Of a stretch of 23,287 nucleotides of DNA, positions 15,617 through 22,293 are shown in pieces; position 1 is the stretch's first letter; every line of letters begins with the position of its first letter. The position numbers and the translations under genes are program-made. The DNA is from a virus: positions 1 to 23,287 of the IMG/VR virus record IMGVR_UViG_3300027971_000226; one strand, 5' to 3'. Under the pieces are notes generated by a model. It saw only the letters and a list, made by a program, of their open reading frames with translations. It was not told the DNA's origin and searched no databases.

Positions 15617-15709
15617 ATGAAAGTTGTTCTGGTTGATGAAGAGAGTTGCCCTTGCTTCTATGGTGGCTCATGTCCTACTGATTATAAGCATAAGAAAGAA
15701 GGGAAGTAA
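15617..15709 (+). CDS. Cys-rich microprotein (30 aa)
   Basis: A 30-codon frame that starts MKVVLVDEE and contains CPCFYGGSC, with three cysteines at 11, 13 and 19. It ends one base before the NADAR start, which suggests coupled translation. AAAGG lies nine bases upstream of the ATG. The Cys pattern could bind a metal. It may be a leader peptide for NADAR rather than a stable protein. Confidence 0.4.
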   Translation: MKVVLVDEESCPCFYGGSCPTDYKHKKEGK

Positions 15710-15710
15710 G

Positions 15711-16118
15711 ATGATAGATAATCTGAAAGGTACTTACCTTAGTAACTTCTGGTCAGTACCTATCGTATATGAAGGCTTAACCTACCCTAATGCAGAGTGT
15801 GCATTCCAAGCCAGCAAGTGTGCTAATAAAAGCGAAAGAAAAATGTTCACCGTTATCAACGGAGCACAAGCCAAAGCGTTAGGCAAAAAGATAAAGATAA
15901 GACCAGACTGGAATGAGGTAAGACTATCCGTAATGTGGAATATTCTGCAAGCAAAGTTTGCCCAGCATCCAGACCTAACCGCTAAACTAATAGCAACTGG
16001 AGATAAAAAAATAATTGAAGGTAATACCTGGAACGATAAGTTCTGGGGCGTAAGTGACGGAGAAGGCATGAACCACCTCGGTATCATGCTAATGGCAATA
16101 AGAGAGGAAGCAAAATGA
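15711..16118 (+). CDS. NADAR family enzyme (YbiA-like)
   Basis: The 135-residue protein matches the compact NADAR fold over its whole length. It has LSNFWSVPIVYEGLTYPNAE near the start, AFQASKCANK, a central VRLSVMWNILQAKF, TGDKKIIEGNTWNDKFWGV near 105-123, and a final GMNHLGIMLMAIRE. NADAR proteins were predicted to work in NAD and ADP-ribose metabolism. Members have been shown to remove ADP-ribose from guanine bases or to hydrolyse riboflavin intermediates. The conserved Trp, Glu and Asp/Trp-Gly positions all appear present. The ATG at 15711 is preferred to the longer frame because the upstream part is read in another frame by the Cys-rich microprotein. It overlaps the next gene as ATGA. 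A role against ADP-ribosylating or NAD-consuming host defence is inference. Confidence 0.8.
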   Translation: MIDNLKGTYLSNFWSVPIVYEGLTYPNAECAFQASKCANKSERKMFTVINGAQAKALGKKIKIRPDWNEVRLSVMWNILQAKFAQHPDLTAKLIATGDKKIIEGNTWNDKFWGVSDGEGMNHLGIMLMAIREEAK

Positions 16119-18888: not shown

Positions 18889-19417
18889 AACAATAATCAA
18901 ATCAAGAATAGAACAAATCAAAAAACTGTCTAGTCAAGATGAGCACGGACAGTTTGAAATGGGTACACCTGAACAACAAAGCGCTGCTAGGTTAGTAGAA
19001 GATTTCTATACTAACTTTGACTTAAGTAAAGAAACAAGTGAAGATGAACTATCTATTACAACAGCCGCTGTTATACTAGCACTCAAAGATATTCAAGTGC
19101 GTGACTATGCACTAGGAATGTATGACCCAGCAGAAGAGAAGGCTAGACTATGCTTTGAGTTCTTAACAAAGCATGCACCCGCTAAGTACATTGCTGCACC
19201 TACTACATTGCTTGCTCTTACATACTATGAGAAGCATCAAGATGGTAAAGCAGATGAAGCATTGAAACCAGCATTAGCACAAGGCTATTCATTAGCAACA
19301 CTATTGAGCCGAGTGTTCCAAACTAACTGGCCTGTTGGTGCATTCAATAGCATGCGCCTGGAACTACATCCACGCGTAAAGGCAGGCATATTCGGAGGGA
19401 CAGATGACAATAACTAA
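18881..19417 (+). CDS. DUF4192-like protein (178 aa), GTG start
   Basis: The start is GTG at 18881, preceded by AAGGGAG. Residues about 105-178 match the pattern of DUF4192, an actinobacterial family of unknown function: KYIAAPTTLLALTYYEKHQD, then ADEALKPALAQGYSLATLL, then a Pro/Leu-rich end. The N-terminal half is acidic and helical (STEDELSITTAAVILALKDI-like) and contains one SITTAAVILAL helix. It is shorter than the usual cellular members. It overlaps the DUF932 gene by 14 bases and is the best hint of an actinobacterial host. Function unknown. Confidence 0.65.
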   Translation: MNKTIIKSRIEQIKKLSSQDEHGQFEMGTPEQQSAARLVEDFYTNFDLSKETSEDELSITTAAVILALKDIQVRDYALGMYDPAEEKARLCFEFLTKHAPAKYIAAPTTLLALTYYEKHQDGKADEALKPALAQGYSLATLLSRVFQTNWPVGAFNSMRLELHPRVKAGIFGGTDDNN

Positions 19418-20393
19418 AAACAAATCAGCATGGGTAAGAGGTGGCACTGCAGTTGAGGCTACCTCTGCCCGTGATGCAGCAACACAAGCAGGACTTAACT
19501 GGACTGTACGCACAAGTGAACTACAAGCAGTAAGTACACCTCTATCTATTAATGAGCATGGTGTAACACCAGCCACATACATAGATGTACCAAAGAAGCA
19601 GGCTATTATCCGTGAGGATAACAACACAGTCATTGGTATTGTTGGTAAGAAATACAAAATGGTACAGAACATGGAAGTATTTAATGCACTAGATACATTG
19701 GTAGACTCAGGTGATGCACGTTATACCGCAGCAGGTGAGTTTAATGGTGGTGCTAACATCTGGATGCTACTTGAGTTACCGCAAGGTGTAGAGGTAGCCA
19801 ATGACCCACATGCTGCGTTCCTATTGGTTAAGACATCACATGATGGTTCATCATCAGTAGTAATTAAGCCAGTCATTGAGCGTTTGTTCTGCGCTAACCA
19901 AGTTAACGGCTTGATTAGTAACACAGGTAGAAAGTACAATGAGTACACATACCGCATGACACACACAACTAATCAAGAGTTATCTATTGCGGACATCCGC
20001 AACATTACTAACCTAACATACACTGCTATAGCAGACTATCAATTGGTTGCTAACAATTTGTTACGCAAGCCAATGACACGACAAGAAGCAGTTAACTTCT
20101 TCAAGAGAGTATGGCCTCTACCTACTACAGTAGAAGATAAACCATACGACCTACTCACTAGAGGTGAGCGTAAGCAACAGACTATTGCTAAAGATTCCCG
20201 TGCTAAAGCATGGTCCATCTATAGCGAATCAGAAACACAAGAGAACATCAGAGGCACAGCCTTTGGTGCATGGCATGCAGTAGTAGAACATGCTGACCAT
20301 TACGCTACGGGTGGCGCGTCTCGCCTTGCCGCGGCCACCCTGAGTGGACGCAATGATAAGATAAAGACAAGGGCTTTATCTTTGTTAGTATAG
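19404..20393 (+). CDS. DUF932 phage/plasmid protein
   Basis: This 329-residue protein matches the DUF932 (TIGR03299-like) pattern. It has VIGIVGKKYKMVQNMEVFNA near residue 75, then GGANIWMLLELP, KTSHDGSSSVVIKPVIERL (about 147-165), FCANQVNGL and a final GTAFGAWHAVVEHADHY. The family is common in phages and plasmids and is suspected to act in DNA replication or recombination; no activity is proven. GGAGGG five bases upstream of the ATG supports the start. A G+C-rich hairpin lies inside the gene near 20309-20340. The stop is followed by a 121-base gap with a weak hairpin (TTTACC/GGTAAA at 20395-20412), a T-rich stretch and the pseudoknot. Confidence 0.8.
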   Translation: MTITKNKSAWVRGGTAVEATSARDAATQAGLNWTVRTSELQAVSTPLSINEHGVTPATYIDVPKKQAIIREDNNTVIGIVGKKYKMVQNMEVFNALDTLVDSGDARYTAAGEFNGGANIWMLLELPQGVEVANDPHAAFLLVKTSHDGSSSVVIKPVIERLFCANQVNGLISNTGRKYNEYTYRMTHTTNQELSIADIRNITNLTYTAIADYQLVANNLLRKPMTRQEAVNFFKRVWPLPTTVEDKPYDLLTRGERKQQTIAKDSRAKAWSIYSESETQENIRGTAFGAWHAVVEHADHYATGGASRLAAATLSGRNDKIKTRALSLLV

Positions 20394-20459
20394 GTTTACC
20401 TTGAGGGGTAAAAGCGCAGAACTTATATCGTTAATCCTTTTTTTATATAAGGGACACCT

Positions 20460-20493
20460 CACTGGGTTGCTCCGCCAGTGGCGAACACGGAGC
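20460..20493 (+). ncRNA. Candidate H-type pseudoknot in an mRNA leader
   Basis: CACTGG (20460-20465) pairs with CCAGTG (20475-20480), and GCTCCG (20469-20474), within that loop, pairs with CGGAGC (20488-20493). Both stems are perfect 6-bp helices. Loop 1 is 3 nt, the stems abut, and the last loop is 7 nt, which is good geometry for an H-type pseudoknot. It ends 11 bases before the ribosome binding site of the gene at 20515. A translational control element or riboswitch-like leader is possible. No known riboswitch consensus was recognised. Confidence 0.5.
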
Positions 20494-20514
20494 ATTAAAC
20501 AACGAGAGGAACAC

Positions 20515-20934
20515 ATGAACACAATCCAAATCACAACAGTAGATGGTGCAGTAAACTATACTGAATCTGAAATTGTCCGTTACATTGAGAAAGCAAAGGC
20601 AGTAGATGACCTTAACGACATGCTTGGCAAACAAGTCTACGCAATCCGTGAACTTAAAAATAAAGTCCGTGACTTCTTCAGTGAAGTTGAATGGGAAGAC
20701 GGTGAGCAAACAGTCACTAAGTCTGATGTCAATGAGTTTCTTGAATCCATTGGATGCCACAAACTTACATCAAGATATGGTGGTACATTTAGAATCACTG
20801 GTACCTTCCAAGTAGAAGCAGAAGATGCAGATGAAGCAGAGTCTATGTTCATAGATAATGTAGATGTATCCTTCAATGATGGTGATTACACCATTGATGA
20901 AACAGAAGTTAATGATGTAGAAGAAGACTACTAA
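20515..20934 (+). CDS. Acidic early protein (139 aa)
   Basis: The ATG at 20515 follows AGAGGA and is preferred to the in-frame start at 20401, because the extension runs through the pseudoknot leader. The protein is very acidic, with a helical middle (ESEIVRYIEKAKAVDDLNDM, RELKNKVRDFF) and an end with FRITGTFQVEAEDADEAESM and EEDY. No family was recognised. Acidic early phage proteins can mimic DNA or bind host nucleic-acid enzymes. That is one hypothesis only. Confidence 0.6.
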   Translation: MNTIQITTVDGAVNYTESEIVRYIEKAKAVDDLNDMLGKQVYAIRELKNKVRDFFSEVEWEDGEQTVTKSDVNEFLESIGCHKLTSRYGGTFRITGTFQVEAEDADEAESMFIDNVDVSFNDGDYTIDETEVNDVEEDY

Positions 20935-20995
20935 ACTCGGCGCAACACGCCAGCATCATCATACATAGTCCGTCACACTATGCTATGATGAGGGC

Positions 20996-21048
20996 AGGTT
21001 AGAGGTGGCAGGGTTTTGGTTCTCTCCTTGTTCCTGCTCCTCTAATCT
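20996..21048 (+). promoter_or_regulatory. Structured leader before the exonuclease gene
   Basis: AGGTTAGAGG (20996-21005) pairs with CCTCTAATCT (21039-21048), ten pairs with one G-U. After a small internal loop, GCAGG (21008-21012) pairs with CCTGC (21033-21037), leaving a 20-nt pyrimidine-rich apical loop. It ends just before AAGGGAG, the ribosome binding site. TATGAT at 20984-20989 could be a promoter -10 element, but no good -35 is seen. It may control expression of the recombination genes. Confidence 0.4.
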
Positions 21049-21066
21049 ACTTAACAAGGGAGAACT

Positions 21067-21840: not shown

Positions 21841-22293
21841 ATGGCAAGTACCGAAGCACCTATCAGCATCACAGTTAAGACAGCAACAGGTTCTCTTGTT
21901 ACTGTTCGCGCCGAGAACGGCGAAGAACTAGACCAAGTAGTAGCCCTATCATTAGCATCACTAGCATCAGCAGTGCATGAGTTAGAAGCAGCAGTCAAGC
22001 CTACTAACACAGCAGTACCACCTAACCCACAGATAGCAGCAATTGCTACATCATTCGGTGCAACAGAAGTAGCACCATTTGTTCCAGCAGCATACGCTAA
22101 TGTAACTGATGGTCAGCGTGTATGTCCTCACGGTATGATGACACGCATCCATGGATTAACAGGTAAGTTTGGCCCATACAAGGGCCACTTCTGTCCTGCT
22201 AAGCAAGGTGACATGACTAAGTGCACCACTCAATACATCAAAGCAAATCAACCAGAATGGAATAGTTTCCAAGCCGACCAAACAAAGGCATAA
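21841..22293 (+). CDS. Zinc-finger protein of the replication operon (150 aa)
   Basis: The N-terminal 50 residues form a small beta/helix domain (ISITVKTATGSLVTVRAENG, then a Leu/Ala-rich helix). A Pro-rich linker leads to a C-terminal zinc finger with Cys 95, His 97, Cys 118 and Cys 128 (CPHG ... FCPA ... KCTTQYI). This resembles topoisomerase-type C4 fingers that grip DNA. It starts directly after the exonuclease stop and ends directly before the ATPase start, so it probably assists DNA processing by its neighbours. A ssDNA-binding or loading role is inference. Confidence 0.55.
   Translation: MASTEAPISITVKTATGSLVTVRAENGEELDQVVALSLASLASAVHELEAAVKPTNTAVPPNPQIAAIATSFGATEVAPFVPAAYANVTDGQRVCPHGMMTRIHGLTGKFGPYKGHFCPAKQGDMTKCTTQYIKANQPEWNSFQADQTKA

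Follow-up and report, generated by a model that had tools for sequence, protein, structure and literature searches.

A covarying pseudoknot within a well-supported three-way junction lies between genes of uncultured freshwater phages and may act on mRNA stability

Results

The segment 20460-20493 comes from an uncultured virus that infects bacteria in fresh water. Covariation among its homologues supports it well as a real RNA fold, an H-type pseudoknot, and it makes up the 3' part of a larger motif, which occurs in far more than a hundred related viruses and is frequent among uncultured phages of fresh water. The DNA analysed, here called the window, is the whole stretch of 23,287 nt of IMG/VR record IMGVR_UViG_3300027971_000226.

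The plus-strand letters of this segment, CACTGG-GTT-GCTCCG-CCAGTG-GCGAACA-CGGAGC (34 nt), had been described in a sequence-only reading as two interleaved perfect 6-bp stems with loops of 3 and 7 nt. Re-reading the geometry from the letters gave the same arrangement, two interleaved helices with short loops as in other H-type pseudoknots, and the homologues agree with it (Table 1). The two stems abut, with 0 nt between them, and U20468-A20494 is a possible seventh pair of the pseudoknot helix. The distance of about 11 bases given in that reading between the end of the pseudoknot and the ribosome binding site likewise stands, at about 10 nt to the start of GAGAGG; the ATG of the acidic gene is at 20515.

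Table 1. Features of the element and its surroundings (positions in the window, except where a locus is named)
Feature	Position	Strand	Observations
DUF932 (PF06067) gene	19404-20393	+	Upstream same-strand gene; domain match
Accessory hairpin TTTACC/GGTAAA	20395-20412	+	Just past the DUF932 stop; one of several exchangeable structured modules there (leader comparison)
P1, 5' strand CGC	20415-20417	+	CGC at the same place in 122/122 distinct inserts with enough upstream sequence
P2 hairpin CTTATAT/ATATAAG	20422-20428/20445-20451	+	Sequence free among relatives
P3 CACTGG/CCAGTG (stem 1 of the sequence-only reading)	20460-20465/20475-20480	+	6 bp; 5/6 pairs with double-sided changes, 96.9% paired, 49 distinct sequences
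L1	20466-20468	+	3 nt
Pseudoknot helix GCTCCG/CGGAGC (stem 2 of that reading)	20469-20474/20488-20493	+	6 bp; 99.7% paired; 2/6 pairs with double-sided changes, four near invariant
L3 (7-nt loop of that reading)	20481-20487	+	7 nt
P1, 3' strand GCG	20481-20483	+	First three bases of L3; compensation in L027, L297 and L259
Linker AACA, P1 to pseudoknot helix	20484-20487	+	ACA invariant in the alignment
Shine-Dalgarno-like GAGAGG of the acidic gene	20504-20509	+	Outside all helices; kept in the majority of related acidic-gene leaders
Acidic gene	20515-20934	+	139 aa; no Pfam, PHROG or INPHARED match
PK2 example	L022:634-660
PK2 example	L364:8529-8555
PK2 example (Roseobacter phage SIO1)	L414:601-627

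Neither the geometry nor the energy of one sequence is proof of such a fold, and it is the homologues that decide. A slightly looser geometric scan gave 0.68 such arrangements per shuffled window, with several others in the real window, and an energy fold by a pseudoknot-free method, which is blind to pseudoknots, gave z = -0.75. A frequency of around 0.7 per shuffled window and an unremarkable z-score are what would be expected of a chance arrangement, or of a DNA-level element without an RNA fold. Against this, double-sided compensation was found in P3, the pseudoknot helix, P2 and P1, and we regard that explanation as refuted by the covariation counts that follow.

Two protein-based IMG/VR scans with the acidic gene gave many relatives, in whose leaders the pseudoknot is kept while its letters change in step (GCTCCG/CGGAGC, GTCCCG/CGGGAC, GTCCCG/CGGGGC and GTACCG/CGGTAC). 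Viral contigs were then searched with the degenerate core pattern GGGTN5CGCCN4GCGNACACGN3C, which leaves seven pairs unconstrained on both sides and yields abundances that are lower bounds. Among the matches listed, all 12 pairs were present in 113 of 119 distinct instances and at least 11 in 118 of 119, and a second pattern recovered a further subtype, with C-G rather than G-C as its last P3 pair. Over 49 distinct 34-nt cores, 98.3% of cells were paired, and the covariation score was 0.559, compared with 0.171 after shuffling (0 of 500 shuffles reached the observed score) and with 0.112 or less in slid controls. Double-sided changes numbered 122 in these cores against 36.1 in shuffled ones, a count that kinship among the cores inflates; kinship cannot explain the covariation, however, because the P3 strands CACTGG, GGATGG, AAGTGG, TGCTGG, GCGTGG and GAGTGC each occur with the matching partner. 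The remaining pairs of P3 and the pseudoknot helix are near invariant, in part since the search patterns fixed those letters. Compensatory changes in homologous leaders, on which the sequence-only reading had staked its fold, were thus looked for and are abundant.

That reading lacked the upstream helices P1 and P2 (20415-20451). The 122 inserts share one order, with CGC 20-62 nt upstream, the P2 hairpin, a spacer of usually 3-11 nt and then the pseudoknot. P2 is represented by 95 distinct stems among these inserts, with a stem score of 20.3 against 8.3 for shuffled sequence. As our first patterns had fixed the GCG of P1, an extra scan was run demanding that its middle base not be C; this gave two motif-fitting loci, both with GTG and with CAC upstream (L027, identical with L295, and L297), and L259, with GCGT and ACGC, is a third locus with compensation in P1. 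The core is matched without a clear P1 in L293/L294, and the matches in L296 and L298 look like chance. The whole is well supported by these comparisons as a three-way junction of P1, a P2 of free sequence and P3, closed by a pseudoknot in which the P3 loop pairs with the strand that follows P1 on its 3' side.

We also considered the P2 hairpin as the -10 region of a promoter and rejected this, since GC-rich or unrelated stems occupy the same place in L036, L052 and L074; no sigma-70-like site was scored at the hairpin.

Among the matches listed, 119 of 140 distinct instances lie between two same-strand genes, as assigned with a simple ORF caller, and 103 of those 119 do not overlap another ORF call; the few instances with an opposite-strand call upstream are probably ORF-calling noise. 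In the 103 clean instances the element lies, at the median, 72 nt past the upstream stop and 24 nt ahead of the next start. The next start is 20-29 nt away in 74 of them, which, with the strong conservation of the loops and junction, a size like that of small pseudoknot riboswitches and the precedent of T4 gene 32, would suit a translational regulator of the next gene, that is, a small riboswitch or a protein-bound operator of the gene 32 type that alters ribosome access. We consider this unlikely, although it deserves to be taken seriously: the downstream genes are diverse, copies at operon ends have no downstream gene, other copies stand 50-170 nt from the start with further structures between, the Shine-Dalgarno sequence is outside all helices, and no Rfam riboswitch model matched.

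At least four different phage genes follow the element, namely the acidic gene, DUF932, a PD-(D/E)XK exonuclease gene and a MARGNG-type gene, or others, and the operon-end copies lie ahead of a terminator hairpin or a convergent gene with no translation start near (L158, L265, L269 and L291). The original description of a leader element of the acidic gene therefore survives in part: the element does lie just upstream of that gene's ribosome binding site, on the transcribed strand, but it also stands ahead of other genes and at operon ends, and it is missing from L132 and L136, close relatives that retain the acidic gene. Most phage contigs carry a single copy; in one contig two copies stand apart from each other, and another has a tandem pair. 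The tandem copies are those of L168/L216/L288.

The upstream side of the element bears on a different role, in which it would hold back 3'-5' exonucleases or be processed by an endonuclease, shielding the mRNA of the upstream gene as intercistronic hairpins do. A same-strand gene is near upstream wherever the upstream call is clear, and the operon-end copies would fit; directly ahead of terminators (L158 and L269), however, such a barrier would be redundant, and this role does not account for the strong association with the following start codon, so that we hold it to be improbable. We think it more doubtful still that the element is a cis-acting antitermination or protein-binding RNA site, like HK022 put or lambda nut, acting on RNA polymerase in an early operon. 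The compact, conserved fold speaks for such a site, as does the fact that a genome usually has the element once, within the block of DUF932, acidic and exonuclease genes, whereas copies right ahead of intrinsic terminators or convergent genes (L158, L269 and L291) would favour harmful read-through, and positions vary between genes.

In five loci (L161, L190, L193, L155 and L200), a promoter-like TTGCAA, 16 nt, TATACT (or an extended -10) lies between the element and the exonuclease gene, and there the element may mark the close of the preceding transcription unit and not the leader of the following one.

Outside the uncultured phages, blastn of three core versions against the INPHARED isolates gave short partial matches only, and the element is absent from OX376640 and OX376641, the nearest named phages by TerL. 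The strict pattern had one match in 84,980 bacterial and archaeal species, within a Polaromonas ORF, which we judged to be chance.

Comparison of leaders indicated that the region between the DUF932 and acidic genes is a mosaic of structured modules. Directly ahead of the acidic gene lies either the element or a pseudoknot unrelated to it in sequence, PK2 (CACCTGAGNANGTGNNTAAACTNCTCA), and neither is present in L132 and L136. PK2 is an H-type pseudoknot of 28 nt with an S1 of 3-4 bp and an L1 of 1 nt, in which no P1 or P2 was seen; 97.3% of its positions are paired and its covariation score is 0.266 against 0.121. It occurs in more than 120 contigs at least, among the matches listed, and often starts 5-20 nt past a stop codon; it is also found in series, ahead of tRNAs in two phages, and in isolates including Lentibacter phages and Roseobacter phage SIO1, where it lies just past the ribonucleotide reductase gene, at 22199-22226 of that phage. 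The window has no PK2, and no Rfam match was found in the PK2-bearing loci scanned. Both are thus intercistronic H-type pseudoknots that occupy the same site in related phages and can be tandem, although they differ in sequence and the phage range of PK2 is much wider. Because of their positions, the PK2 copies before tRNAs and after stop codons cannot serve translation control.

Other structures were seen in these leaders. Module C (L029:1310-1385 and L166:7250-7310), with an internal loop GAACCAGCGTAA/GATGCAGGTAGTT and a covarying closing stem, is usually just upstream of either pseudoknot, and a variant with its strands in the opposite order, and so circularly permuted, is found in L166, L177, L187, L226 and L359. 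The acidic-gene leaders of L018, L031, L053 and others hold further modules, one with TTCCGTATGCATACTGC..GCAGCGATAGCGCGGAA and a covarying outer stem and several more, which are apparently confined to that one intergenic site.

Elsewhere in the window, the leader (20999-21064) of the PD-(D/E)XK exonuclease gene (21067) contains a hairpin, TTAGAGG..GCAGG/CCTGC..CCTCTAA. Its loop, TTCTCTCCTTGTT, is rich in pyrimidines and complementary to AACAAGGGAG, the ribosome binding site. Seventy relatives have 50 different stems here (score 11.1 against 6.4 shuffled), and the loop-to-site match, at 7.9 against 7.0 for shuffled loops, is only modestly higher; the hairpin is a candidate for a pseudoknot that sequesters the ribosome binding site. 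Ahead of the same gene, at 20964-20990, a conserved CATAG..CTATG hairpin and TATGCTATGATG, which is extended -10-like, are present in most relatives and are possibly its promoter. A NADAR-domain protein (PF08719) is encoded at 15624-16115, possibly a gene of NAD/ADP-ribose metabolism or of counter-defence.

Discussion

The element most likely protects or trims virus mRNA, acting on the stability or the ends of the RNA. As a specific form of this, we tentatively favour, at somewhat less than an even chance, a compact mechanical roadblock that would stop a host ribonuclease, with the 5'-3' exonuclease RNase J as the most plausible candidate, and would fix the end of a stable mRNA. In such a scheme 20415-20493 would be transcribed within a polycistronic early phage mRNA; the long transcript would be cut, or would decay from its 5' side, and 5'-3' degradation by RNase J would halt at the knot, leaving a stable downstream RNA whose first bases lie a little ahead of an undamaged ribosome binding site. 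Where the element stands at the end of an operon, what remained would be a short stable 3' RNA. Given the spacing of 20-29 nt to the start, RNA stopped at the knot would retain the full ribosome binding site, which is one reason for favouring a 5'-3' block; a second is that the topology is that of the class 1 exoribonuclease-resistant RNAs (xrRNAs) and that an xrRNA can stop bacterial RNase J1. A purely translational role is excluded for the group of elements by the operon-end and pre-tRNA copies. The diversity of downstream genes, the tandem copies and the exchange with PK2 also count toward a roadblock. Counting against it are the mostly single copy per genome, whereas a general stabilizer could be thought likely to recur across several operons, the tight start spacing, which equally fits translational control, and the P2-P3 spacer, which is unlike that of the class 1 xrRNAs.

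Class 1 xrRNAs consist of P1, P2 and P3 with a pseudoknot between L3 and the downstream sequence, have a variable P2 and occur in serial copies, and in subclass 1b the gap between P2 and P3 is 0, or rarely 1 nt (PMC7527734); a flaviviral xrRNA blocks bacterial RNase J1 in vitro (PMC5760640). The element shares with the class 1 (1a/1b) xrRNAs of the Flaviviridae the three-way junction, the short P1, the variable P2, the conserved P3, the serial copies and the pseudoknot joining the P3 loop to the strand that follows P1. It differs in its P2-P3 spacer, mostly 3-11 nt where 1b helices are adjacent, in an L1 of just 3 nt, and in its intercistronic place in a DNA phage. Class 1 xrRNAs further possess a second pseudoknot, which links their 5' end with the junction, a base triple and a ring round the 5' end, and the likeness of the element to them is one of topology alone. 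We have not filed it as an xrRNA, as the spacer misfits 1b and there is no Rfam match.

The xrRNAs of plant viruses (dianthovirus and polerovirus), which are eukaryotic RNA viruses, are small pseudoknotted RNAs. The likeness of the element to them is that of a small pseudoknotted RNA, the sequences having been compared through the Rfam scan alone; these plant-virus xrRNAs are mentioned in PMC8826918 and PMC7527734.

Gene 32 of T4 offers a phage comparison. RNase E cleaves its mRNA directly upstream of a pseudoknot, and the mRNA is unusually long-lived (PMC3014915), which provides a precedent for phage pseudoknots that mark the ends of processed messages. The T4/T2 gene 32 leader and the element both have an H-type pseudoknot ahead of a phage gene, and the two pseudoknots are alike in size, that of gene 32 being on a processed polycistronic mRNA; here, by contrast, there are many downstream genes, no ssDNA-binding gene was identified among them, and the pseudoknot sits inside a three-way junction. 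The gene 32 operator is bound by the ssDNA-binding product of its own gene; examined as a possible counterpart, the acidic protein gave no Pfam or PHROG match and a poor AlphaFold model (pLDDT 72, pTM 0.34), and the element also precedes DUF932 and exonuclease genes. The A+U-rich UUAA(A) repeats that the gene 32 leader has between the pseudoknot and the ribosome binding site are absent here, where 20494-20503 reads ATTAAACAAC with one TTAAA that most relatives lack. The suggestion of leader control in the style of gene 32 finds no support, given the recurrence of the motif before DUF932, PD-(D/E)XK exonuclease and MARGNG-type genes and at operon ends. Autoregulation like that of gp32 is unlikely because the element is not tied to the acidic gene, and we do not classify it as an operator of the gene 32 type, since it has no UUAA repeats and stands ahead of many different genes.

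The sequence-only reading had not recognized the fold and thought that it might be new, and no Rfam family matched it: the window and 15 related loci gave no match at gathering scores and nothing relevant at E≤5, and no covariance model of a known riboswitch class matched. Within the literature searched (subscription papers and preprints being outside its scope), the core sequence appeared, across 5.39 million papers, in one unrelated neuroscience paper only, and no report of nuclease-resistant RNAs in phages was found. The RNA family appears to be new, undescribed in Rfam or the searched literature, while the type of fold is itself already known.

The finding adds a structured RNA family of uncultured freshwater phages, and a second, PK2, which reaches isolated phages and is open to study now. 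Should the element prove to be a riboswitch or a protein site instead, it would still represent a new and very small class for which the covariation model is clear. With rather less confidence than its opposite, we suggest that there may be a widespread family of phage xrRNAs, in which xrRNA-like three-way-junction pseudoknots, interchangeable with unrelated small pseudoknots, lie between genes, halt 5'-3' decay by the host and define the termini of stable mRNAs or of short noncoding RNAs. If the roadblock is real, the nuclease-resistant RNA strategy of eukaryotic RNA viruses would also have evolved in the DNA phages of bacteria, and the element would offer a direct test of how phage messages survive RNase J, as well as a small, portable stabilizer of mRNA.
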